Notes under the pieces: generated by a model | What the model was told of the DNA's origin: nothing | Database searches by the model: none | What the model saw: the letters and a program-made list of their open reading frames with translations, nothing else | NCBI RefSeq assembly: GCF_003947415.1 | Contig: NZ_QHKL01000002.1 | Coordinates: 248,001-312,000 of the forward strand | Reading direction: 5' to 3' | Length of the DNA stretch: 64,000 nucleotides | From: Amycolatopsis sp. WAC 01376 | Lineage (GTDB): Bacteria > Actinomycetota > Actinomycetes > Mycobacteriales > Pseudonocardiaceae | Shown: positions 846-18,193 of the stretch, one piece after another | How the letters are laid out: each line of letters starts with the position of its first letter | Position numbering within the stretch: position 1 is the stretch's first letter | Made by a program: the position numbers and the translations under genes

Positions 846-3800
846 ATGACGAACGAGACCGATATCGCGGTCGTGGGCGCCGGTTGCCGTTTCCCCGACG
901 CCTGGACCCCGGAAAGCTTCTGGCGGAACCTCGACGCCGGCGTGGTTTCCATGCGGGAACAGGACGAGGACCGGCTCCGGGCGTCCGGTGTGTCCGAGGC
1001 GGACCTGAAGGCGCCCGACTTCGTCCGGGTGGCCGCGACCCTGCCGGGAGCGGAGGACTTCGCCGCCGAGTTCTTCGGAGTGTCACCAACCGAGGCCGAG
1101 ACGATCGACCCGCAGCACCGGCTGCTCCTGGAAAGCTGCTGGGAGGCGCTGGAGTCCGCGGGACATCCGCCGCGTGCGGACGGCCCGGTGACCGGCATCT
1201 TCGCGGGAGGCGCGCCGAGCCGGTACTCGGCCGCGTTGCTCGCGGCGAAGACCATGGAGTCCGGGCTGATCGAGGCGTTCGACGACCTCGGGCTGACGCT
1301 GGGTGGCCTCGGGGACCTGATGACGTCGAGGATCGGCTACAAGCTGGGGTTGCGCGGGCCGACCGTCGGTGTGCAAACGGCTTGTTCGTCCTCGCTGTAC
1401 GCGGTGCATTACGCGACCTTGAGCTTGCTTTCCGGAGAGTGCGACATCGCGCTGGCCGGCGGTACGACGATCGCCGAGCCGGTCACCGGATACCGGTACC
1501 AGCCGGGCGGCCTGACCTCCGAGGACGGCTACTGCCGCTCGTTCGACGCGACTTCGACCGGAACCGCGTTCAGCTCGGGGATCGGCGTGGTGGCCCTGCG
1601 CAGGCTTTCCGACGCGCTCGCCGACGGCGACCCCGTACTGGCGGTGGTCCGCGGCAGCGCCATCGGGAACGAGGGCTCGAACCGGCCCGGTTTCACCGCG
1701 CCGACCCCGTCCGGGGTCGCCGACGTGGTCGCGGCCGCGTTGCGGGTGGCCGGCGTGCCGGCACGGCTGCTGAGGTACGTCGAGGCGCACGGGTCGGGCA
1801 CCGCACTCGGCGATCACATCGAGCTGCTGGGGCTCACCGACGGCCTGCGGGCCACCACCTCCGACAGCGGATTCTGCGGACTCGGCTCGGTGAAGGCGAA
1901 CATCGGGCACACCGGTGCCACCGCCGGTATCGCCGGTTTCCTGAAGGCGGTGCACATCGTGCGCACCGGAAACCTTCCCCCGCAGCCGATGTTCGACCGG
2001 CCGCGGGATCCCGGCATCCTCGCCGAAAGCCCGTTCTTCGTGCCGGCGAGCGCGAGTTCGAACCTCGACCGGGACCGGCACGTGCTGGTCAACTCGATGG
2101 GCGTCGGCGGCACGAACGCCGTCGCGGTGCTCGCCCCGCCGCCCGCACCCGTGCGGCCCCCGGCACCGGAGACCGAAGTCGTCCGGCTGGTGCTGTCCGG
2201 GCGCACTCGCGCCGAACTGGACGCGTTGTCCGGACGGCTCGCCGATGAGCTGGACGCCGGTGGGCAGGCCGTCGCGGACGTGGCGCATACGCTGAGGGTC
2301 GGACGGCGGTCGTTCACCGAGCGCCGGGTGGTGACCGCCGCCCCCGGCGCGCTGGCGTCGGTGCTGCGCCTGCCCCGTCCGCCCGCCGCCCGCACAGTGC
2401 GCACCACCGCCGCGCGGCGGGCGATCGTCGTCGCGCCGGAAGGGCTGGACGTGCCGCGCGCGCTGCTCGCCGCGTTGCCCGGCAAGCCCGAGGTGGTGCG
2501 GGAGGTCCCCACGCGACCGTCGGCGGACGAGTTCGTGCTGCTCGTCGGCACCGGCGAAGCGGGACCGGCCCGCCACGTCCTACCGCTCGAACCGGATACC
2601 GATCCCGGCGTGCTCGCGGACCGGGTCGAGGAGGCGCTCACGGCGGCCTGGCTGCACGGCGTCGACGTGGCATGGGAGACGATCTCCGGTGGCCGAGGCC
2701 GCCGGGTGACGCTGCCGACGTATCCGTTCTCCCGGCGCAGGTATTGGGCTCTCGACAGGATGCCGCCGATCGCCGCGCCTTCGAGCTGGTCCCGCCCCGC
2801 CGCGACGACCGAGTCCACTGTGGACAACGTCGGTACGGAGGAGCCCGGATCCATCGAGGCGGAGTTGCTCGAACTGTGGCGTGAGCTGTTCGGCGTCTCC
2901 ACGATCGGCGTGGACGACGAGTTCGGCCTGCTCGGCGGGACCTCCTTGCTGTACGTGCAGATGGCACTGAAGGTCCAGCAGCGCCACCAGGTCCTCATCA
3001 ACGTGCACCGCTCGGGTGGCAGCCGGACCACGGTGCGCAGGATCGCCCGGATCGTCCGGGGCAAACTCGGCGCGCAAGGCGACGAAGCCGTCTATCAGGT
3101 CGCGGACGGAGACGGCGAGCTGATGGACGCCGACCTGCAACTGCCGTTGGCCGATGTGTCCGAAACGGAAGCGCCGGGTACCGATGTGCTGCTGACCGGC
3201 GCGACCGGCTTCCTCGGCGCGTTCCTGCTGCACGAGTTGCTGGCCTCGACCGAGGGCAGGATCTACTGCCTGGTGCGGGCCGCGGACGAGGCCGAGGGCC
3301 GGGAGCGGCTGAGCAACGCGGTGAAGGCGTTGGGGCTGCCCGAAACGGACTCGGACCGCGTACACGTGGTGCCCGGCGACCTCCACGACATCGCCAAGGT
3401 CTGCCGCGAGTACCGGGACGGCGAACTCGCCACGCAGGTGGGCCGGGTGCTGCACTGCGCGGCCCGGGTGGTCTTCACCGAGCCGTACCGGGTCCTGCGC
3501 GAGAGCAACCTGCTGCCGATGGTCGACCTGCTGTCGTGGATGCGGGGCAACGGAATCCGGGACTTCTCCTTCGTCTCCACCGTCGCGGCGACCGGGATCG
3601 CGATGGGCACCGGCGGGAAGATCCTGGAGACCAGGGAACAACCGCTGGATCCCGAGCAGGGTGGGTACGGCGTCAGCAAATGGGTCGGCGAACGGCTGCT
3701 GGAACGGGCCGAGCGCGACGGTATGCGGGTCCGGGTGTTCCGGCCGGGCGTCATCGTCTCCTCCCGGACGACGGGGGCCTGCAACGACAAGGACCTGGTC

Positions 3801-4298
3801 TGGCATCTGCTGGCCAGCGGTCTCGCGGTGGGCGCGCATCCGCTCGACGAGCGTGCCTGGCCGGTGGCACCCGTCGACGTGGTGGCCAAGGCCATCGCGG
3901 AACTCTCGTTCGTCCCGGGTTCGGTCGGCCGCGCGTATCACCTGGTCCACGAGAAATTGATCAACCCGCGGCAGATGTTCGAGCTGCTGGCCGAAGCGGG
4001 CCTGCCGACCGAGGCCGTCGAGCCGGAGGAATGGAAGCGTCGGGTGGCCGAAAAGGCACTGGCGACGGGTGACGAGGTGCTGTCGAACATGACCCTCTAC
4101 GAACTCGAGGGCGAGGAGAACCTCGGCGAGGACGACATGGAAGCCAAGGGCTGGCAGGACTGGCTGAGCCGCTCTGGCTTGAGTTCCGAACCGACCGGAG
4201 AGCTGCTGCGCGGCGGGCTGGAGTACCTGGCCGAGAACAAGGCGGCGGCGGGCGACCTGGTGGCGAATCTCGTGAGGACAAGGGGAACGCGCTCATGA
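846..4298 (+). CDS. AT-less polyketide synthase module: KS - (AT remnant linkers) - ACP - thioester reductase
   Basis: This 1,150-residue protein has three recognisable domains. Residues 5-430 are a ketosynthase with an intact Cys180 (TACSSS), His315 (VEAHGSGT) and His355 (NIGHTG). Residues 440-640 contain the usual KS-AT linker and post-AT linker (LPTYPFSRRRYW), but no acyltransferase core with a GHSxG serine lies between them. A carrier domain follows with Ser700 in LGGTSLL. Residues about 775-1080 are a thioester reductase with TGATGFLG (784-791) and Tyr941/Lys945 (YGVSK), which would release the chain as an aldehyde or alcohol with NAD(P)H. The last 70 residues are unassigned. Extender units must come from elsewhere, either a trans-acting AT or the ACP-bound extender made by genes at 10649-14198. 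The stop overlaps the next start (ATGA). Confidence 0.88.
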   Translation: MTNETDIAVVGAGCRFPDAWTPESFWRNLDAGVVSMREQDEDRLRASGVSEADLKAPDFVRVAATLPGAEDFAAEFFGVSPTEAETIDPQHRLLLESCWEALESAGHPPRADGPVTGIFAGGAPSRYSAALLAAKTMESGLIEAFDDLGLTLGGLGDLMTSRIGYKLGLRGPTVGVQTACSSSLYAVHYATLSLLSGECDIALAGGTTIAEPVTGYRYQPGGLTSEDGYCRSFDATSTGTAFSSGIGVVALRRLSDALADGDPVLAVVRGSAIGNEGSNRPGFTAPTPSGVADVVAAALRVAGVPARLLRYVEAHGSGTALGDHIELLGLTDGLRATTSDSGFCGLGSVKANIGHTGATAGIAGFLKAVHIVRTGNLPPQPMFDRPRDPGILAESPFFVPASASSNLDRDRHVLVNSMGVGGTNAVAVLAPPPAPVRPPAPETEVVRLVLSGRTRAELDALSGRLADELDAGGQAVADVAHTLRVGRRSFTERRVVTAAPGALASVLRLPRPPAARTVRTTAARRAIVVAPEGLDVPRALLAALPGKPEVVREVPTRPSADEFVLLVGTGEAGPARHVLPLEPDTDPGVLADRVEEALTAAWLHGVDVAWETISGGRGRRVTLPTYPFSRRRYWALDRMPPIAAPSSWSRPAATTESTVDNVGTEEPGSIEAELLELWRELFGVSTIGVDDEFGLLGGTSLLYVQMALKVQQRHQVLINVHRSGGSRTTVRRIARIVRGKLGAQGDEAVYQVADGDGELMDADLQLPLADVSETEAPGTDVLLTGATGFLGAFLLHELLASTEGRIYCLVRAADEAEGRERLSNAVKALGLPETDSDRVHVVPGDLHDIAKVCREYRDGELATQVGRVLHCAARVVFTEPYRVLRESNLLPMVDLLSWMRGNGIRDFSFVSTVAATGIAMGTGGKILETREQPLDPEQGGYGVSKWVGERLLERAERDGMRVRVFRPGVIVSSRTTGACNDKDLVWHLLASGLAVGAHPLDERAWPVAPVDVVAKAIAELSFVPGSVGRAYHLVHEKLINPRQMFELLAEAGLPTEAVEPEEWKRRVAEKALATGDEVLSNMTLYELEGEENLGEDDMEAKGWQDWLSRSGLSSEPTGELLRGGLEYLAENKAAAGDLVANLVRTRGTRS

Positions 4299-5278
4299 CC
4301 ACGGACAACGGTTCCGGCGCGATCGGCATCGGCGCGATGCACTGCCTGCTGCCCGAAGACCGGATGGCGGTCACGGATCTGCCGGAATACGCCCAGCTCG
4401 GCCATGAAGAGCTCGCGTTCGTCGAGAAATGCGGTGTGCGGACCGTCGGGGTGTTCACCGAGACCTCGCAGGCGGCCCTCGCCGGGCAGGCCTGCCGGGA
4501 ACTGCTGGCCGAGCATCCGGTCGACCCCGACATCCTGCTGATGGTCGGGCCGCGGTCACCGGACGTGCTGCTCGGCTCGGACGTGTGCCGCGTGCAGGCG
4601 GAGAACAAACTGGACTCGGCGTTCGCCTTCAGCGTGGACGGGCTGGGCTGCACCGGTTCCAGTGCCGCCTGGGCGCTGGCGCGTGACCTGCTCGTGGCCG
4701 ATCCCGGCCGCGAGAGCGTGCTGATCACGCACACCAGCCGTCCGACCGGAGCGGACCGGATCCGGTTCCCCGTCACGGTGGTCGGCGACGGGGCGTACGC
4801 GATGACGATGGTCCGGGGCGGCCGTCCTGTGCTGCGAGGGCATCGGCAGGAGACCGACGGCTCCTTCAACGACCTGTTCCGCGTGGACTACAAGCAGACG
4901 CCCTGGTACGAATGGCGCGAGGAATGCCTGGACCCGGCCAGGTACAGCTTCGAACTGGCGACGCACAGCCAATTCCGGCTCAGCCGCCTCGTCGACCGTG
5001 TCCTCGCCGAAGCCGGGATCGGCAAGGACGCCGTCGCCACCACCCTGATGCAGAACGTCGCGGCGAGCGCGTTCGGCTTCTACACCTCCCTGCTCGAACT
5101 GCCGATCCACGACGTGTGCCTGGCGCAGCTGACCGAGTACGGGCACCTCGGCGCGATGGACGTCGTGCTCAACCTCGACCGGTTGCTCGCCACCGGCGAG
5201 CTGGCCGAGGGCGATCTCGTGCTGGTGCTGAACAACAGTCCGGTGGCCGCCTGGGCGGTGACGTTGTGGGAAGTCTGA
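4295..5278 (+). CDS. KAS III-like (FabH/CerJ-like) condensing or acyl-transfer enzyme with altered catalytic residues
   Basis: A 327-residue protein with a thiolase/KAS III fold signature. The nucleophile is Cys119 in [11 protein letters not shown], and GDGAYAMTM matches the usual GDGAxA stretch. FabH normally uses His (PHQAN) and Asn (YGNTSA). Here those positions read LMQNVA (Met252 at the His position) and YGHLGAMD (His284 in place of Asn). So the His/Asn pair is lost, with a His at the Asn site, which suggests an acyl transferase or non-standard condensation rather than fatty-acid initiation. It is translationally coupled to the KS-reductase gene upstream and overlaps the adenylation gene downstream, so it acts in the same pathway. 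Family assignment is solid; the reaction is inferred. Confidence 0.75.
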
Positions 5279-6837
5279 ACGGCACACCGGAAACGCTGTA
5301 CGACTGGTTCACCGCGTCGGTGGCCAGGTGGCCGGACGAGACCGCGGTCGAAGTGCGGGATGTCAGCCTGACCTACGCGCGGCTTCACGAATGCGCGCTG
5401 GCGCTCGCCTGCCGGATCGTCGCCGAGCACGGCGGTGCGCCGGAGCGGATCGCGTTGCTCGCTTCCCGCAGCGTGGTCGCGTACGCCGGCTATCTCGCGG
5501 GCCTGTACCTCGGCTCGGTCCTCACCCCGCTCAATCCGGAGTACCCCGCGGCCCGCAACCGCATGGTCTGCGAACTGGCGAAGGTGGACCTGGTGCTGGC
5601 CGACGAAGCGGGCTCCGCGCAGCTCGACGACGACGATCTCGCCGCCACCGTGCTCACTCCCGCCGACGCCGACGTGCTCGCGGCCCGGCCCACCGGCGAA
5701 CCGCGGCCGCGCCGGACGAGCGGTGACGACGTCGCGTACGTCCTGTTCACGTCGGGCTCCACCGGCCGTCCCAAAGGCGTGCCGATCCGGCACCGCAATC
5801 TGTCGCCTTACCTGGCGCACAACATCGAGCGTTATCAGGTGAAGCCCGGCTGCCGGATGTCGCACGCCTTCGACCTGACCTTCGACCCGTCGGTTTTCGA
5901 TCTCTTCGTCACCTGGGGTGGCGGCGCGACGCTGATCGTCCCTCGGCGCACCGAACTGCTGACCCCGGTGGACTATCTGGTGGAGCACCGGATCACGCAC
6001 TGGTTCTCGGTGCCGTCGGTGGTTTCGGTCAGCGCGGACCTCGGCAACCTCCCGGCGGGACGGGTGCGCGAGCTGCGCTACAGCCTGTTCATCGGCGAAC
6101 AGCTCACGGTCCGGCAAGCGCGGGAGTGGCGGGCCGTCGCGCCGGACGCGGTACTGGAGAACGTCTACGGCCCGACCGAATTGACCGTCGCTTGTACCGA
6201 ATTCCGGCTGCCGGACGATCCGGAGCAGTGGCCGGCCACCACGAACGACACGGTGCCGATCGGGCCCGTATACGACTTCCTCGACCACGTGATCCTGGAC
6301 GAGGCAGGATGTCCCGCGGCGGAGGGCGAGCTTTGTGTCCGCGGCTCCCAGCGCTTCGACGGCTATCTGGACCCGCAGGACGACATCGGCCGGTTCCTCA
6401 CCCACGACGACGCCGGGACGACGGTGTACGACGGAACGGGGCCGCTGACCGAGGCGCATTACTACCGCACGGGAGACAGGGTGCGGTGGGAGTCCGGCAA
6501 TCTCGTCCATTTAGGACGGTTGGACAACCAGGTCAAGGTCCGCGGCTATCGGATCGAACTCGGCGAGATCGAGGCGGCCATGCGACGGCATACCGACATC
6601 CGGGACGCGGTCGTGCTCGCGATCAAGAACGAGGAAGAAACCGAACTCGTCGGATGCTATACGGGCGTGCCGCAGGCGCCGTTGCGTTTCCTGCACTGGC
6701 TGTGCGACCAGGTGCCCATCCACATGGTTCCGCGGCGTTTCGAGCATTTCGATTCCTTGCCCCTCAACGCCAACGGCAAGATCGACCGGAACGGGCTGCG
6801 CGACCTGCTGCCCGGCGGCCGCGCGGTCAAGGCGTAG
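5266..6837 (+). CDS. Free-standing amino-acid adenylation enzyme (A domain)
   Basis: A 523-residue AMP-forming enzyme that activates a carboxylate for loading on a carrier protein. Core motifs are present in order: [11 protein letters not shown] (A3), [11 protein letters not shown] (A4), VYGPTE (A5), YYRTGD (A7), [15 protein letters not shown] (A8) and NANGKIDR (A10 lysine). No carrier or C domain is fused to it. The reading frame is open well upstream, but GTG at 5266, 13 bases inside the preceding gene, gives a normal A-domain N terminus. Aligned by eye to GrsA, the pocket reads roughly D-P-F-S-F-G-V-V-A-K; the Asp fits an alpha-amino acid, but I cannot name the substrate. The likely partner is the free carrier at 504-842. 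Codon 416 (6511-6513) is a rare TTA. Confidence 0.88.
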
Positions 6838-10648: not shown

Positions 10649-11806
10649 ATGGACTTCGCGCCTACCGCGGAACAACAAGAACTTCGTGACCGGGTGATCC
10701 GGTTCGCCAAGACCGACATCGGTACGCGGGCGGCGGAACACGACCGGGAAGGCACGTTCGACGAGGACGGCTGGAAGCTGTGCGCGGACTTCGGCGTGCT
10801 CGGCTGGCCGATCGCGAGCGAGTACGGCGGTTCCGGCTACGATCCGCTCACCGCGATCATGGCCTACGAAGGTCTCGGCTACGGATGTGCCGACAACGGC
10901 CTGGTGTTCGCGATCAACAACCACGTGTTCGCCTGCGCGGTCTACATCGCCGATCACGGGACGGAAGAGCAGCGGCGTCGGTGGCTGCCGTCCCTGTGCG
11001 ACGGCTCGATGGTCGGGGCGCACGCGTTGTCCGAACCGGAGACCGGGTCGGACATGCTTTCCCTGACCACCAAGGCCGTCCGGTCCGGGGACGGCTATGT
11101 CCTGACCGGCACCAAGAAATTCATCAGCAACGGTCCGCGCGCCGATCTGTTCATCGTGTTCGCGAGGACGAGTGAAACGGAAGCACCGCAACGGTCGATC
11201 TCGGCCTTCGTGGTGGAGCGGGACACTCCCGGCCTCTCTGCGAAACTGATCCCCAAGGCCGGGTTGCGGGGTACGCCGATGGGCGAGATCGTCTTCGACG
11301 GCTGCGTGCTGGGAGAGAATCAGCGGCTCGGCGCCGAAGGTGCCGGATATCAGCTGTTCACCTCCACCATGGAGTGGGAACGCGGGTTCATGTTCGCCGG
11401 CGGGGTCGGTGTGCTGGCGCGACTGCTCGACCGCTGTGTCGAATACGCGAGTACCCGCCAGCAGTTCGGCAGGGCTATCGGTGCCTTCCAGGCGGTGTCG
11501 CACAAGATCGCCGACATGCGGGTCCGGCTGGAGCTGGCACGGCTGTTGCTCTACAAGGTCGGCTGGCTGCGCTCGCGGGGCAGGCTCGCCCTGCACGAGG
11601 CGTCGATGTTGAAGCTGTATGTCAGCGAAAGCCTGAGCGTCAGCGCGCTGGACGCGATGCAGATCCACGGTGCCCGTGGCTACACCGAAGAACTGGGCAT
11701 CGAGCGGGAACTGCGGGATGTGCTGGCGGGCACGATCTACGGCGGTACCTCGGAAATCCAACGGTCCATCATCGCCGGCCTGCTCGGTGTTCCCACGTCG
11801 GTCTGA
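10649..11806 (+). CDS. Acyl-CoA dehydrogenase-like flavoenzyme of the aminomalonyl-ACP cassette (FkbI/ZmaG-like)
   Basis: A 385-residue FAD enzyme of the acyl-CoA dehydrogenase family. HALSEPETGSDM is the flavin-contact motif, RQQFGRAIGAFQ the helix near the FAD pyrophosphate, and IYGGTSEIQR the C-terminal motif. The medium-chain-type catalytic Glu (IYEGT) is Gly here, but Glu244 in MEWERG sits where isovaleryl-CoA dehydrogenase keeps its base. In methoxymalonyl- and aminomalonyl-ACP pathways, homologs oxidise the ACP-bound semialdehyde to the malonyl level. Neighbours (loading ligase, hydroxyacyl dehydrogenase, ACP) support that role here. GGGGAGGGG lies 6-14 bases before the ATG, a strong ribosome site at the head of this sub-operon. 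Confidence 0.82.
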   Translation: MDFAPTAEQQELRDRVIRFAKTDIGTRAAEHDREGTFDEDGWKLCADFGVLGWPIASEYGGSGYDPLTAIMAYEGLGYGCADNGLVFAINNHVFACAVYIADHGTEEQRRRWLPSLCDGSMVGAHALSEPETGSDMLSLTTKAVRSGDGYVLTGTKKFISNGPRADLFIVFARTSETEAPQRSISAFVVERDTPGLSAKLIPKAGLRGTPMGEIVFDGCVLGENQRLGAEGAGYQLFTSTMEWERGFMFAGGVGVLARLLDRCVEYASTRQQFGRAIGAFQAVSHKIADMRVRLELARLLLYKVGWLRSRGRLALHEASMLKLYVSESLSVSALDAMQIHGARGYTEELGIERELRDVLAGTIYGGTSEIQRSIIAGLLGVPTSV

Positions 11807-11815
11807 GGAGGACGA

Positions 11816-13033
11816 ATGCACGACTATCGGCTCGATCTGGAAAAACCGCTGATCGACGCTCATCTCGACGAGTTGCGCCGCCGCGTCTATTTCGTGTCGG
11901 AGGACATCGTCGACTTCCAGCTGGTCTTCTCCGGCAACGAGGTGGTCGCCGTGGTGGTGACGACCGACGACCCCGCGGACGCCGCTGAGCTCTCCAGGAA
12001 GCTGGAGTTCGTCGTCGAGAACGACGTGCGGACCCAGCTGCCGACACCGCCGAAGGTGGTGTGGCGTTCCGACTCCACCCGGGTGCCGCTGTCCGACGTC
12101 TTCGAGGGAATGCTGGCCGATGGCGTGGTGCACGAGATCGGCCCGGGTCAGGTGGCGCTCGGCGAACCGGCGATCACCGCGCTGAACACGCTGGACGGAT
12201 TGCTGCGCCACATCATCGACGACGAATTCGACGCGCGCGAGTACCGGTATCCCACGCTGCTCCCGGTCACCGCGCTGCATCGCAGTGGCTACCTGTCGTC
12301 GTTCCCGCAGCACATGATGTTCGCCGCCCGCCTGGACGGCGACGTCGACACCTATCGCGCCTTCGCGAAGGAAGTCGGCGAGCGCGCCCAGATCGGTGAA
12401 CACATCCTCGGGAAATGCGGTCCGGTGGACCGGTGCCTGCCGCCGACGATGTGCTACCACACCTTCGACCAGTTCTCCGGGTCCACATTGGACAGGGAGA
12501 ACATGGTGGTGACGGCGAAGGGTGGATCGTTCCGGCACGAGGCCCGTTACCACCGGACGCTGGAACGGCTGGCGGACTTCACCATCAGGGAGACGGTCTT
12601 CCTCGGCTCGGCCGAGTTCGTCCGGAGCGCCAGGGACCGGTTCCGTGACCGGGCGATCGAACTGGTCGCCGAACTCGGGCTCGCCGGGCGGTGCGAGGTC
12701 GCCAACGACCCGTTCTTCGCCAGTGTCGAAGGAGCGGCACGAGCGTCTTCGCAACGGCTGCTCGAACTCAAGCACGAGTTGCATCTGGATGTCGGTCCGC
12801 AGGGGCAGAGCATCGCGGTCGGCTCGTTCAACCTCCATGAACAACATTTCGGCGAAGCCTTCGGCATCAAGGGCCCGGACGGCGAGGTGGTGTATTCGGC
12901 CTGCGTCGGCTTCGGGCTGGAGCGCCTGACCTACGCGGTGCTGTGCCAATACGGATGGGACATGGCCGACTGGCCGGAACCGCTGCGGCAGCGGGCCGGA
13001 AGGCTTCTTCGAGCGACCAGGGGAGATCGATGA
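11816..13033 (+). CDS. Class II aminoacyl-tRNA-synthetase-like amino acid:[carrier protein] ligase (probable seryl-ACP ligase)
   Basis: A 405-residue protein with class II synthetase motifs but no tRNA-binding extension: motif 2 as FRHE (239-242) and motif 3 as GFGLERL (365-371, Arg370). The family known as amino acid:[carrier protein] ligases derives from atypical (archaeal-type) seryl-tRNA synthetases that bind the amino acid through a Cys-Glu-Cys zinc site. Glu242, Cys363 and one of Cys201/207/213 are the likely counterparts. It would form seryl-AMP and transfer serine to the phosphopantetheine of the ACP at 13926-14198. In zwittermicin the same step uses an NRPS-type A domain (ZmaJ), so the loader differs. 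AGGAGG precedes the ATG. Substrate serine is inferred from neighbours. Confidence 0.78.
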   Translation: MHDYRLDLEKPLIDAHLDELRRRVYFVSEDIVDFQLVFSGNEVVAVVVTTDDPADAAELSRKLEFVVENDVRTQLPTPPKVVWRSDSTRVPLSDVFEGMLADGVVHEIGPGQVALGEPAITALNTLDGLLRHIIDDEFDAREYRYPTLLPVTALHRSGYLSSFPQHMMFAARLDGDVDTYRAFAKEVGERAQIGEHILGKCGPVDRCLPPTMCYHTFDQFSGSTLDRENMVVTAKGGSFRHEARYHRTLERLADFTIRETVFLGSAEFVRSARDRFRDRAIELVAELGLAGRCEVANDPFFASVEGAARASSQRLLELKHELHLDVGPQGQSIAVGSFNLHEQHFGEAFGIKGPDGEVVYSACVGFGLERLTYAVLCQYGWDMADWPEPLRQRAGRLLRATRGDR

Positions 13034-13929
13034 CGGACACCACTACGGTCAGGCGCGTCGGCGTGCTCGGCGCCGGCACGATGGGCATCGGCGGCGCGCA
13101 CGCGTTCGCCGCGGGCGGATTGCCCGTGGTGCTGGTGGACATTTCCCGTGCCGCCCTCGACCGCGCACGCGACGAGATCGCCAACAACGCCAGGCTTTAC
13201 GGGATGCTCAATCGCGCGCTCGCGGGAAGTACGCCCGCGGAAGTGCTCTCGCGCATCACTTTCACCACCGAGGCGGACGAACTCGCCGATGTCGATTTCG
13301 TGGTGGAGAACGTCACCGAGAACTGGGAGGTGAAGCAGGCCCTGTACCGCGAGATCGACCGGATCTGCTCGCCGCGGTGCGTTTTCGGGGTGAACACCTC
13401 GGCCATCCCCATCACCAAGGTGGCGTCGGTGACCGAACGCCCCGACCGGGTCATCGGAACCCATCTGATGAACCCCGTACCGCTCAAACCGCTGGTCGAG
13501 GTCATCCGCGGTTTCCACACCTCGCCCGAGACCATCGACCTCACCCGTGAGGTCTTCCGCCGCATCGGCAAGGATTGCGTCGTGGTCGAGGATTCCTCGG
13601 GCTTCGTGACCAACCGTGTCGCGATGCTGTCGGTCAACGAGGCGATTCTCCTGCTCCAGGACAACATCGCCTCGGCGGGTGACATCGACCGGCTTTTCCG
13701 GCAGTGCCTCGGGCATCAGATGGGACCGCTGGAGACCGCGGACCTCATCGGGCTGGACACCGTTCTCTATTCCCTCGAAGTGCTGCTCGACAATTTCAAC
13801 GATCCCAAGTTCCGGCCGGCTCCACTGCTCCGCAAACTGGTCGCGGCCGGTCGGCTGGGTCGCAAGAGCGGCCATGGTTTCTACCCCTACGAGCCGGTCA
13901 ACGCCGGGACTATGGCAGGTGCCGAATGA
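13030..13929 (+). CDS. 3-hydroxyacyl-CoA dehydrogenase-like enzyme (FkbK/ZmaI-like)
   Basis: A 299-residue NAD(P)-dependent dehydrogenase. VGVLGAGTMGIGG (GxGxxG at 14-19) is the dinucleotide site, His145 in IGTHLMNP is the catalytic His, and the C-terminal helical domain (DRLFRQCLGHQMGPLETADLIGLDT) is complete. In ACP-bound extender biosynthesis such enzymes oxidise the hydroxymethyl group of glyceryl- or seryl-ACP to the semialdehyde, which the acyl-CoA dehydrogenase-like partner takes to the acid. The ATG at 13030 overlaps the ligase stop, and the frame extends upstream only as an alternative start inside that gene. Position between the loading ligase and the ACP makes the aminomalonyl role the best reading. 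Confidence 0.85.
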   Translation: MTDTTTVRRVGVLGAGTMGIGGAHAFAAGGLPVVLVDISRAALDRARDEIANNARLYGMLNRALAGSTPAEVLSRITFTTEADELADVDFVVENVTENWEVKQALYREIDRICSPRCVFGVNTSAIPITKVASVTERPDRVIGTHLMNPVPLKPLVEVIRGFHTSPETIDLTREVFRRIGKDCVVVEDSSGFVTNRVAMLSVNEAILLLQDNIASAGDIDRLFRQCLGHQMGPLETADLIGLDTVLYSLEVLLDNFNDPKFRPAPLLRKLVAAGRLGRKSGHGFYPYEPVNAGTMAGAE

Positions 13930-14198
13930 CTGAGGACCGTATTTCGATCATCCGCGCTTTCATCGCGCAGAACGTCCGTGACACCGAACTCACCGACGAT
14001 CACGACATCTTCGCCACCAGCAGCGTCAGCTCGATGTTCGCCGTCCAGCTGGTGATGTGGGTCGAGCGGACCTTCGGCGTCGCCGTGGTCCCCGCCGACC
14101 TCGACATCGCCAACTTCCGGACGGTCAACCATGTGGCCAAGTTCGTCGAGTCCAGGCTCGGCGCGGTCGCCGAGAAAGAAGGCGCGCCGGCGTCGTGA
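13926..14198 (+). CDS. Discrete acyl carrier protein (FkbJ/ZmaH-like)
   Basis: A 90-residue ACP. The attachment motif is SVSSMFAVQLV with Ser36 as the probable phosphopantetheine serine; the 'xSxFAxQL' form is the one seen in free ACPs that carry glyceryl- or seryl-derived extenders rather than in modular PKS ACPs. Helix II continues as MWVERTFGVAV, also typical. ATG 13926 overlaps the dehydrogenase stop, and its own stop overlaps the transferase start, so ligase, dehydrogenase, ACP and transferase form one coupled block. It probably holds serine through both oxidations and presents aminomalonyl to the ketosynthase. Confidence 0.87.
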   Translation: MTEDRISIIRAFIAQNVRDTELTDDHDIFATSSVSSMFAVQLVMWVERTFGVAVVPADLDIANFRTVNHVAKFVESRLGAVAEKEGAPAS

Positions 14199-15025
14199 CC
14201 GCGACCTCCCCGGCCGGTGCCGTCTCCCCGGTGGCAGCGCCGCTGCCCGGCGCGCTGCCACCGGGCACCTGCCACGTGTGGTGGGCGAGTACCGCGCAGG
14301 CGTCCGATCGGCACCTGGCCCTGCTGGACCCGGTCGAACGGGCGCGCCGCGCCGGTATCGCGGGGCAGGCGGACCGGGACCGGTTCACCGTGGGCTGTGC
14401 GCTGCTTCGCCTGACGGCGGGCGGCTACACCGGCGTGGCGCCGGAACGGGTCCGGATCACCCGGTCCTGTCCGGACTGCGCCCTCCCGCACGGCAAGCCT
14501 GCCGTCCTCGACGGGGACATCGAGGTCTCGGTGTCGCATTCGGGCAGGCGGATCGCGGTCGCGGTGTCCAGTGCCGGCGCTGTCGGCGTCGACGTCGAAG
14601 AGATCCGCGCCGACGTCGACGTCCGGGGGATGGCCGCGTACGTGCTGTCCCCCGCGGAATCGGCCCGGCCCGCCACCCCCGGTGTCGACGAGTTCGCGGC
14701 TTTCTACACGTCCTGGACCAGGAAGGAAGCCATCGTGAAGGCGACGGGGGAAGGGTTGCGAACGCCCTTGTCCAGCCTCACCCTTTCCCCGCCGGGAGAA
14801 GGGGTGAGGCTGCTGGCGGCGGAGGGACGGGACGGGCTGCGGGGCCAGGTCGCGATCAAGGATCTCGCGGCGGGCCCCGGGTACGCCGCGGCCGTCGCGG
14901 TGCTCGGGCCCCGGCTCGTCGAGGTTCGCGAACTGGACGGAAACGCGCTCTTGGCCTGCGAAGACCGCAACCGGGTCCGCACTGTGGACGTGCTGGTCGG
15001 CACGGACGGTCGTTGCCGACAATGA
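14195..15025 (+). CDS. Sfp-type 4'-phosphopantetheinyl transferase
   Basis: A 276-residue protein with the three Sfp signatures: SVSHSGRRIAVAVS, GVDVEEI (Mg-binding acidic residues) and WTRKEAIVKATGEGL (WxxKEA). It transfers the phosphopantetheine arm from CoA to the serine of carrier proteins, here presumably the free carrier at 504, the KS-fused ACP and the ACP directly upstream. GTG 14195 overlaps the ACP stop (GTGA), and its stop overlaps the next ATG. The first 30 residues are Ala/Pro-rich, so the true N terminus could be slightly shorter. Having its own transferase is common in compact actinobacterial clusters. Confidence 0.9.
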   Translation: MTATSPAGAVSPVAAPLPGALPPGTCHVWWASTAQASDRHLALLDPVERARRAGIAGQADRDRFTVGCALLRLTAGGYTGVAPERVRITRSCPDCALPHGKPAVLDGDIEVSVSHSGRRIAVAVSSAGAVGVDVEEIRADVDVRGMAAYVLSPAESARPATPGVDEFAAFYTSWTRKEAIVKATGEGLRTPLSSLTLSPPGEGVRLLAAEGRDGLRGQVAIKDLAAGPGYAAAVAVLGPRLVEVRELDGNALLACEDRNRVRTVDVLVGTDGRCRQ

Positions 15026-16291: not shown

Positions 16292-16807
16292 ATGACGCAG
16301 CCGCTCGCGCTGAGCCAGGAGCCTACCGTCGAACTGACGCTGGCGTTACGGGTGAACACCGACTCCGAACACGCCGCCGCGATCGCCGCGCGCCTGCTTG
16401 AGTCCTTTGAGGACACTGTCGGCGTGACCCTGACGGCACGCACCGTCCCGGCGGATTCCGGCCAGGTCATCGAACTCGCCGGACGACGGCGACGAACCGG
16501 CGAATCCGCGCCGCCGTTGCGCATCGAACCCGATTCGCGGCGAGTGCTGCTGCATGGCGAGGTGCTGGAGTTCACCAGACTGGAATTCGACCTCCTGCTG
16601 TTCCTGAGCCGGAACCCGGACCGCGTCTTCGACCGCCTCACGCTGATGGCGCAAGTGTGGGGGCTGTCCGGCGGCAACGGGCGGACCGTGGACGTCCACG
16701 TCCGCAAGATCCGCGGGAAACTCGAACCCGTGCTGACGCCGATCACGACGGTGCGCGGGGTCGGCTACCGGTTCGACGGGGCGGGCCAGGTGCTCATCGC
16801 GGACTGA
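16292..16807 (+). CDS. Winged-helix transcriptional regulator with OmpR/PhoB-type DNA-binding domain, no receiver
   Basis: 171 residues. Residues about 75-165 form an OmpR/PhoB effector domain: LEFTRLEFDLLLFLSRNPDRVFDR (first helices), GGNGRTVDVHVRKIRGKL (recognition helix) and TVRGVGYRF (wing). The N-terminal 70 residues resemble neither a receiver (no phospho-Asp motif) nor a known sensor; they have an alternating beta-alpha pattern. It starts one base after the molybdoenzyme stop, so the two are coupled. It may regulate the cluster or only the molybdoenzyme. Codon 19 (16346-16348) is TTA, a codon often confined to regulators and secondary-metabolism genes read by the bldA tRNA. Its 3' end overlaps the convergent gene by 14 bases. 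Confidence 0.82.
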   Translation: MTQPLALSQEPTVELTLALRVNTDSEHAAAIAARLLESFEDTVGVTLTARTVPADSGQVIELAGRRRRTGESAPPLRIEPDSRRVLLHGEVLEFTRLEFDLLLFLSRNPDRVFDRLTLMAQVWGLSGGNGRTVDVHVRKIRGKLEPVLTPITTVRGVGYRFDGAGQVLIAD

Positions 16808-17987
16808 GTGACGGATCCACGACGTTCGACTCCGCGTCTTCGACCACTTTGCCGTCGGAGCCGACAGAAGAGTGGTATCGAGCCACGGTCTTCCGGAGCT
16901 GGTCGGCGTGCTGGTAGATCTCTTCGACTGTCGCGATGGGGATACGTGTCTCCACCTTGTTCTCATCGAAGACACCGAGGTACTTCTTTGAGCGGTTGAA
17001 CCACAGACGAGCGATGGGCTTGCGGTTGTTGTCGTCAAGCAGCACACCGAAATAGGTCTTCGTGTCACGCGCGACGATCCTCGCGGCAGGGACCTCTCCG
17101 CAGACGATGGCCCGGACGATCCGGTATCCCTCGAGTTCTTCTTCGGTCGTGACCACATCCCCGTTGCTGTCATGTGGCCTTGCTTCCGCGTGCCCAGCGG
17201 GGGAGTTCTCGGCAGGAACATCTTGTCCGGAAAGCTCGGGCGCACCGGCGGAAATGCTGACGAAGGAGTCCGGTCCGCCCAGCGCGCTCTTCAGCCGGTC
17301 GTTGACCTGCTCGTTGAGGAACTGGCGTGCCGCCTTGTCGACAAGCGGAGCGAACTGGTCGCGAACCCGTTGAGTGAAGGACCCTTCGTAGACACGGCCG
17401 GCGAGAAACTTCACCCACTCGTCCTCGGGCGTCTTGAACTGGGCCGCGAGGATCCGTTTGATCTGGCCGATGTACTTGAGTTCCTCGGCGGCGTTGATGA
17501 CCGAGTCCAAGTTGAAGGACTCTTTGCTCAACTTCGCGAGTTCGGGAATGAGGGTCTCGTCGATATCCGAAAAGTCCAAGACCAGGAAGGGCTTCGCGTC
17601 CATCCGGTTCGGCGCGTCCAGATCGGTGTAGAACTGGTACGTCTCGCCGTTCGTGAGGATGGCGATCCTCGCATTGGTCACAGCGAAGTACCGGAAAAGC
17701 TGGGATGCGTGCTCGATGCGAAGCGGGTCGTTGATCTTCTTGGCTTCGACCAGTACCTGTACTTGCCCGTCGTGCACGATGGCGTAGTCGATCTTCTCGC
17801 CCTTTTTGGTGCCGACGTCGGCCGTGAATTCGGGGATGACTTCGGCGGGGTTGAAGACGTCGTACCCCAGGACCGTGCTGATGAAGGGCATCACGAAAGC
17901 GTTCTTGGTGGCTTCTTCCGTCTGGATGTCGGCCTTGTGCTTCCGGATTTTCAGAGCCAGAGCCTGTGCGCGCTCTGCGATCTCCAT
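16794..17987 (-). CDS. Orphan protein with type I restriction HsdR N-terminal-like (PD-(D/E)xK) nuclease domain
   Basis: A 397-residue soluble protein. Residues about 45-130 match the HsdR-N fold: EATKNAFVMPFISTVLGYDVFNPAEV, then KIDYAIVHDGQVQVLVEAKK with the D...ExK catalytic set (Asp in KIDYA, Glu-Ala-Lys). There is no helicase/translocase domain and no HsdM or HsdS nearby, so this is a stand-alone nuclease-like protein, a form often annotated 'type I restriction endonuclease subunit R' in actinomycetes. Residues 290-397 form a second, mixed alpha/beta domain. ATG 17987 is chosen because AGGAGG lies 7 bases upstream; an in-frame start at 18035 lacks this. Role in defence or repair is not established by sequence. 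Confidence 0.72.
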   Translation of the reverse strand: MEIAERAQALALKIRKHKADIQTEEATKNAFVMPFISTVLGYDVFNPAEVIPEFTADVGTKKGEKIDYAIVHDGQVQVLVEAKKINDPLRIEHASQLFRYFAVTNARIAILTNGETYQFYTDLDAPNRMDAKPFLVLDFSDIDETLIPELAKLSKESFNLDSVINAAEELKYIGQIKRILAAQFKTPEDEWVKFLAGRVYEGSFTQRVRDQFAPLVDKAARQFLNEQVNDRLKSALGGPDSFVSISAGAPELSGQDVPAENSPAGHAEARPHDSNGDVVTTEEELEGYRIVRAIVCGEVPAARIVARDTKTYFGVLLDDNNRKPIARLWFNRSKKYLGVFDENKVETRIPIATVEEIYQHADQLRKTVARYHSSVGSDGKVVEDAESNVVDPSLSPR

Positions 17988-18193
17988 AGTGATGTCCTCC
18001 ATGTGAAACGTTCCCGCGGTGCGTGGTGGCCGCACCTTCCCCAGTGGCTTTCGCTGTGCTGCGGGACCTAGGTCGTAGACGGTGGCTCTCGCGTTACATC
18101 TCCTGGCCCTCGGAACGTGACGATCCGGCTTGCGGCCATGATCTGCCCCTCATGATCATCACCGGGGCAAAGCCGGGATGCCAGGATACGAGC

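Follow-up and report, generated by a model that had tools for sequence, protein, structure and literature searches.

The window analysed here is a 64,000-nucleotide stretch of Amycolatopsis sp. WAC 01376 (positions 248001-312000 of its contig; source genome 9.07 Mb), and our subject is a cassette of five forward-strand genes at 10649-15025 in which a relative of class II tRNA synthetases stands in the loader position of a gene set akin to the aminomalonyl type. All five genes were found at the coordinates that the initial annotation had given. The first (10649-11806) encodes an acyl-CoA-dehydrogenase-type flavoenzyme (ACAD), which its best match in the PDB (4irn), a tree and the position of its catalytic glutamate place in the prolyl-carrier-protein-dehydrogenase lineage. 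It is followed by a class II synthetase-like carrier-protein ligase of a long form (11816-13033, 405 amino acids), which we propose to be a seryl:[acyl carrier protein (ACP)] ligase; a 3-hydroxyacyl dehydrogenase (HAD; 13030-13929) with 50.7% identity to ClbD of the colibactin pathway; a free ACP (13926-14198) with the motif VSSMFAVQLV and 31% identity to ClbE; and a 4'-phosphopantetheinyl transferase (14195-15025) with an ACPS domain and a GTG start that overlaps the ACP stop.

The HAD, ACP and phosphopantetheinyl transferase starts each overlap the preceding stop by 4 bases, and 9 bases lie between the ACAD stop and the start of the synthetase-like gene, so that the five cassette genes look like one operon. 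The gene set is not a product of chance, since a second genome of the genus has a 97% copy with identical gene order, and ACAD, synthetase relative, HAD and ACP are found together again in distant genomes. The whole cluster is present in that second genome at 87-99% protein identity (16 proteins tried). The distribution of the synthetase relative is patchy; among 35 other genomes of the genus, two have the long form (G020 and G014; G-numbers denote compared genomes and L-numbers compared loci) and two more have a short form. In G014, a seeming fusion of ACAD and synthetase relative (784 amino acids in one open frame) was rejected, as the two genes lie in different frames. A search of viral contigs gave no matches.

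The synthetase relative and its clade

The loader was recognized from the outset as a class II synthetase relative with motif 2 (FRHE) and motif 3 (GFGLERL) and without an adenylation (A) domain, and this description stands; a stand-alone A domain is nevertheless present in the same cluster (about 5275-6837), outside the cassette and not adjacent to it. Among NCBIfam models, the amino acid--[acyl-carrier-protein] ligase NF005479 ranks first (169 bits against a curated equivalog cut-off of 357), followed by two archaeal type-2 seryl-tRNA synthetase (SerRS) models (135.1 bits against 611 and 101 bits against 489.55), none of which reaches its cut-off; the same three families match 56 of the 56 long forms scanned. 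In the PDB, phmmer (E 0.01) retrieved only the glycine:[carrier protein] ligase Bll0957 (127.5 bits, the best match) and type-2 SerRS (85.7 and 59.7 bits), and a profile of 56 relatives again retrieved these two kinds only.

An AlphaFold2 model of the synthetase relative (mean pLDDT 89.9) superposes on the glycine ligase with Z of 31.2-31.9 (293-297 residues, root-mean-square deviation 2.2-2.6 Å) and, in four of five alignments, on archaeal SerRS with Z of 30.9-32.9 (305-315 residues, 2.3-2.4 Å), with the tRNA-bound SerRS of M. kandleri at the top both by Foldseek E-value and by Z. Structural likeness to the ligase and to archaeal SerRS is therefore tied, and sequence is closer to the ligase. 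The initial annotation had proposed a search against carrier-protein ligases and atypical SerRS, and had held that a true tRNA synthetase, complete with tRNA-binding parts, as the closest structural match would speak against a loader. By sequence that search returns Bll0957. By structure it returns a tie in which a true synthetase is listed first, and a likeness that does not clearly extend to the tRNA-binding parts: in four of the five archaeal SerRS alignments superposition sets in only behind the N-terminal arm, at residue 73-79 of the model and 161-169 of SerRS, so that no tRNA-binding arm is cleanly matched (the fifth starts at residue 33, with a deviation of 9.4 Å). We give extremely little credence to a true tRNA synthetase, either a second SerRS or a resistance copy. 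The M. kandleri match would agree with such a protein, but the scores lie below both SerRS cut-offs, the arm is not cleanly matched, carrier-protein neighbours recur, and the ordinary SerRS of the genome is encoded on another contig (441.4 bits, above the cut-off).

The late onset of superposition leaves over about 75-85 N-terminal residues of the synthetase relative. When modelled alone (91 residues, pLDDT 90.4), this N-terminal domain (about residues 1-85) is predicted to form a beta-alpha-beta-beta-alpha unit, for which Foldseek gave no match at E 0.001 (best 0.058) and superposition a Z of at most 6.7; archaeal SerRS is absent among the 50 rows listed, which in itself proves nothing. In the catalytic part, C213, E259 and C363, whose equivalents are the zinc-binding positions of the ligase and of SerRS, do not vary in any of the 62 long forms, and the same holds for R240, E242 and R370.

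With moderate support, the long-form relatives appear to constitute a clade of their own with the extra N-terminal domain. A quick tree rooted on two SerRS split the relatives in two: the 62 long forms grouped together (SH-aLRT 83), apart from a second group (SH-aLRT 80) made up of 30 short forms with the glycine ligase and a divergent Alkalihalophilus protein; partial or broken sequences (L079, L083, L085) and segments below 250 amino acids were left out of the synthetase alignment and trees. A clade profile built from four cassette ligases, those of the window and G049 among them, found matches in 33 of the 394 genomes of the class. They fall into two separated groups: in four genomes, two of which had contributed to the profile, the match spans the full length at 497-766 bits, and in the others it reaches 172 bits at most and lacks the N-terminal domain. 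A scan with two peptide patterns, CLPPTMC and SFP[QH][HMF][MV]MF, yielded 60 long-form loci spanning Actinomycetota, Bacillota, Acidobacteriota, Chloroflexota and one Aminicenantes bin, in which the constancy of CLPPTMC is partly built in because it was a scan pattern. The set of compared loci includes duplicates or near-duplicates (L051 and L138 are identical in ACAD and ligase, L047 and L137 nearly so).

SerRS-derived carrier-protein ligases are already known (Mocibob 2010, according to passages of PMC4849084 and PMC6789786 that cite it). The Bradyrhizobium ligase Bll0957 (PDB 3mey, 4h2s) has the class II core and the zinc-ligand positions in common with the window protein. The latter differs in having an additional N-terminal domain, the CLPPTMC signature and a HAD partner, in falling in a clade of its own and in scoring below the family cut-off. 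A carrier protein is encoded near the Bll0957 gene as well. The membership initially suggested, on condition that the protein charges this ACP with serine, in a family known mostly for charging isolated carrier proteins is accordingly narrowed: the window protein is a relative of that family, but the known family is the short form, the score falls below its cut-off and the clade is separate. On an Alkalihalophilus plasmid (L090:10578-15391), a divergent synthetase relative that aligns over nearly the full long-form profile stands with its own ACP directly before a hydroxymalonyl-type cassette of HAD, ACP, ACAD and FkbH.

Cassette partners and exchange with FkbH

Partners were counted within 9 kb of the ligase at 60 bits or more, 12 of the 60 loci being shorter than 18 kb. 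A HAD accompanies the long-form ligase in 45 of the 60 loci, an ACP in 46 and an ACAD in 48 (including weak or split matches in L077, L083 and L086), with all three present in 37. Five Paenibacillus/Brevibacillus loci (L052, L054, L056, L057, L059) have a long-form ligase and an ACAD of the ClbF kind, and no HAD or free ACP match in 21 kb. The control consisted of 24 short-form loci (16.8-19.0 kb), all from the window's class, whereas the long forms come from several phyla; here HAD and ACP were found in 0 of 24 and an ACAD in 7 of 24, so that an ACAD neighbour alone is not telling. Weak carrier-protein matches (18-39 bits) occur in 18 of these 24 loci. The short-form ligases of L171-L190 often stand beside such a match and sometimes beside a weak ACAD-like gene, in a different neighbourhood.

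FkbH, which loads a C3-hydroxy acid, is near the long-form ligase in only one of the 60 loci (L071), and it has no match within the window's first 30 kb. In L071 (8600-16400, Kitasatospora), the ligase cassette is followed downstream by a second ACAD, of the FkbI type, and FkbH, so that both loaders stand side by side. A search with the window HAD at E 1e-75 matched 14 of the 394 genomes, its own included. Of the 13 others, 12 were opened (all but G396); the loader is FkbH in 10 of these and a long-form synthetase relative in two. The place of the synthetase relative in the cassette is thus that of FkbH in sister cassettes. In the methoxymalonyl/hydroxymalonyl-type cassettes L089 and L090 the free ACP is similar and the L089 HAD is 61.6% identical to that of the window (residues 33-287), but FkbH occupies the loader slot and the ACAD is of the FkbI type.

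Serine is proposed as the likely substrate of the synthetase relative mainly because the loader exchanges with FkbH before the same kind of HAD and ACP, the HAD needing a C3 hydroxyl; by analogy with the C3-hydroxy acid that FkbH loads, the amino counterpart for the same HAD would be serine. It is improbable that the ligase loads glycine or alanine like the short forms, leaving HAD and ACAD to act on another substrate. The closest solved sequence relative is indeed a glycine ligase, but neither amino acid has a hydroxyl for the HAD that accompanies most long forms. At position 365 of the ligase, all 62 long forms and both SerRS have Gly and the glycine ligase has Ala, which is no more than a weak hint because the short forms are split (16 Gly, 14 Ala).

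The ACAD lineage and the product

Unlike the HAD and ACP, the ACAD of the window does not belong with those of known malonyl-type cassettes. Its best PDB match, prolyl-ACP dehydrogenase 4irn, scores 391 bits, and its best NCBIfam models are PigA (389.8 bits, cut-off 500) and prolyl-PCP dehydrogenase (365.1 bits, cut-off 650), both below cut-off. ClbF is 29.5% identical to the window ACAD (136 bits) and 37.8% identical to an FkbI-type ACAD (252 bits). In a tree of 84 ACADs, from which three of less than 300 amino acids were omitted, the 25 window-kind cassette ACADs group as one clade (100/99) within a larger prolyl-type clade with 35 members (100/100), and ClbF, FkbI-type and other cassette ACADs form a separate clade (95/88); the PDB and NCBIfam proteins themselves lie outside this tree and are linked to it by profile and PDB matches.

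Two positions serve as catalytic base in ACADs, and the lineages differ in both. Glu stands at position 244 in all 25 window-kind and all 9 prolyl-type rows, where all 15 ClbF-kind cassette rows, all 5 FkbH-cassette rows and ClbF itself have Gly, the 15 and 5 being a chosen selection. At ACAD position 365 the ClbF-kind and FkbH-cassette rows and ClbF have Glu, the window kind Gly or Ala and the prolyl type Ser.

The prolyl-carrier-protein dehydrogenases (PigA, RedW type, 4irn) thus have lineage and catalytic Glu position in common with the window ACAD, but not its surroundings. Among plasmid ACAD relatives at 43-49% identity (in the 60 listed of 988 records), eight non-cassette regions were opened, one of them without annotation. 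The seven annotated prolyl-type regions have an A domain or AMP-binding protein in 7 of 7, an annotated carrier protein in 6 of 7 and an annotated HAD in 0 of 7. All 25 window-kind ACADs examined stand in ligase cassettes, and the loaders beside window-kind and ClbF-kind ACADs fall in one clade, so that two dehydrogenase lineages fill one slot beside one loader clade. As loader, HAD and ACP are kept, the simplest reading is that the product is kept as well and would be aminomalonyl-ACP.

The main rival to this reading, possible but in our view rather unlikely, is that the window-kind ACAD makes a different product. With loader and carrier as proposed above, the prolyl-dehydrogenase-type ACAD would make an alpha,beta-desaturated or 3-oxo aminoacyl-ACP, which a protein related to ketoacyl-ACP synthase III (KAS III) encoded upstream would pass, as an amino acid unit or starter, to a carrier or condensation domain of a non-ribosomal peptide synthetase (NRPS). 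The ACAD lineage and base position would agree with this, as would two sister loci (L028, L078) without a ketosynthase near the cassette, in one of which (L028) the NRPS starts with a condensation domain, fitting a unit handed over from a free ACP. The HAD and ACP common to malonyl-type cassettes, the single loader clade that accompanies both ACAD kinds, and the confinement of window-kind ACADs to ligase cassettes, in contrast to prolyl-type neighbourhoods without an annotated HAD, argue for aminomalonyl-ACP instead.

In colibactin, ClbD and ClbE are the counterparts of the window HAD and ACP, but the loader ClbH is an A domain, where the window has a synthetase relative, and the ACAD is of the other lineage. 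In zwittermicin, ZmaJ is likewise of the A-domain kind, unlike the window loader. A passage of PMC12390127 places ClbD in the aminomalonyl route and has ClbF make the aminomalonyl unit, as a homologue of ZmaI. Zwittermicin ZmaG/H/I/J are described, in a passage of PMC6395733, as HAD, ACP and ACAD with a dedicated seryl-AMP loader, a set like that of the window; the likeness is drawn from this published description and not from Zma sequences, the zwittermicin plasmid being absent from the 29 records of one Bacillaceae query and from the 60 listed of 753 of another. The match to the zwittermicin-type route suggested in the initial annotation consequently holds for the HAD and ACP, which are of the ClbD/ClbE and methoxymalonyl kind, and does not extend to the ACAD, with its other lineage, other catalytic-base position and poor match to ClbF (ZmaI itself lies outside the comparison). 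Aminomalonyl cassettes are already known, as the same passage of PMC6395733 indicates. Among the papers listed from open-licence literature, by titles, abstract openings and some passages, no synthetase relative is described as the loader of an aminomalonyl cassette; the guadinomine loader lies outside this comparison. What would be new here is the combination of a synthetase-type loader with an aminomalonyl-type cassette, each part having been known before.

A proposed route and its genomic setting

The genes upstream of the cassette, which from the NRPS end to the stand-alone A domain are on the forward strand, offer a possible use for the unit. The window opens with the end of an NRPS gene (condensation domain, to about 502) and a separate small open reading frame for a carrier domain (477-842, the two together covering 1-842). 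The next gene (846-4298) encodes a ketosynthase, a carrier domain and a thioester reductase; its ketosynthase has the active-site motifs, and no acyltransferase (AT) was found, although linkers are left and the sequence that normally comes after an AT can still be made out by eye. One AT query gave no convincing AT in the window (two matches, E 0.046 and 0.75). Then come the KAS III-like protein (4295-5278), a candidate trans-acyltransferase, and the stand-alone A domain (5275-6837, start approximate), a possible rival loader. The upstream NRPS parts read adenylation-carrier, condensation-carrier-condensation and a separate carrier domain, and also upstream of the cassette are genes for a luciferase-like monooxygenase, a flavin reductase and a transporter of the major facilitator superfamily, together with a weak methyltransferase match. 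Farther downstream, on the reverse strand, a frame of 413 amino acids (16794-18035) looks, when read by eye, like the N-terminal region of a type I restriction subunit.

In two sister clusters (L087, L088), an AT-less ketosynthase-carrier protein precedes the HAD and a stand-alone AT lies directly behind the ligase; where these have the AT, the window, L027, L028 and L078 have the KAS III-like protein, conserved beside the cassette at 69-71%. Compared by eye with FabH motifs, this protein keeps the Cys, and the usual His and Asn are not discernible, a pattern that would suit an acyltransferase more than a condensing enzyme.

On the route that we favour with moderate confidence, the synthetase relative would activate an amino acid, most likely L-serine, as the adenylate and load the aminoacyl group onto the phosphopantetheine of the free ACP encoded beside it. 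The HAD would then oxidize the serine hydroxyl to an aldehyde and the ACAD the hydrated aldehyde to the acid, giving aminomalonyl-ACP, with the order of the two oxidations not fixed. A trans-acyltransferase (KAS III-like here, a stand-alone AT in some sister clusters) may deliver the unit to the AT-less ketosynthase-reductase module, whose carrier domain would receive it, and the module would extend an NRPS-bound chain. We infer serine, both oxidations, the transfer and the extender use from features that are read in sequence, namely the parts, their linkage, the ligase fold, the metal-ligand positions, the loader exchange with FkbH and the missing AT.

Several observations weigh against this route. 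The ACAD, being outside the ClbF/FkbI lineage, could carry out another oxidation, and the predicted ligase pocket does not read out serine. In three of the 10 FkbH cassettes (L145, L146, L148) FkbH lies 7-9 kb from the HAD and not adjacent to it, and of the two ligase cassettes found with the HAD, L137 is nearly the same as L047 and L138 is identical to L051, both of which are among the 60 loci. No HAD is present within 9 kb in 15 of the 60 long-form loci, nine of which have a ClbF-kind ACAD match, and ACAD-like neighbours are found beside short forms too, as the control shows. No ketosynthase was found (E 1e-40) near the cassette in L028 (none on the contig) or L078 (53 kb away), so that polyketide-extender use is not general; beside L028, the first domain of the NRPS is a condensation domain. 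Lastly, the stand-alone A domain lies about 5 kb upstream, in the same cluster, and might itself load serine on the ACP and leave the synthetase relative another role. We regard this as very improbable: by tblastn, two sister cassettes show no such domain (none in the 21 kb of L061, none within 8 kb in L029), and its pocket, read by eye, does not resemble the serine code.

A wider proposal, to which we give somewhat less than even weight, is that the long forms constitute a third SerRS-derived branch, apart from SerRS and the short ligases, which would be specialized for seryl:[ACP] ligation in building-block cassettes of several phyla, have its own N-terminal domain and be interchangeable with FkbH; it would be joined by a pyrrole-biosynthesis dehydrogenase that convergently makes the aminomalonyl unit, which a KAS III-like transferase would pass on. 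The ligase gene is annotated as 'hypothetical protein' in both annotated records that were opened, and genome mining is therefore likely to miss it. If the proposal is true, these synthetase relatives would be more than loaders of isolated carrier proteins of unclear purpose, and a whole clade would feed a defined building-block route in place of A domains and FkbH. In addition, the cassette offers a small four-protein system, in which the two ACAD lineages in one slot would allow one to ask how one oxidation arose twice.

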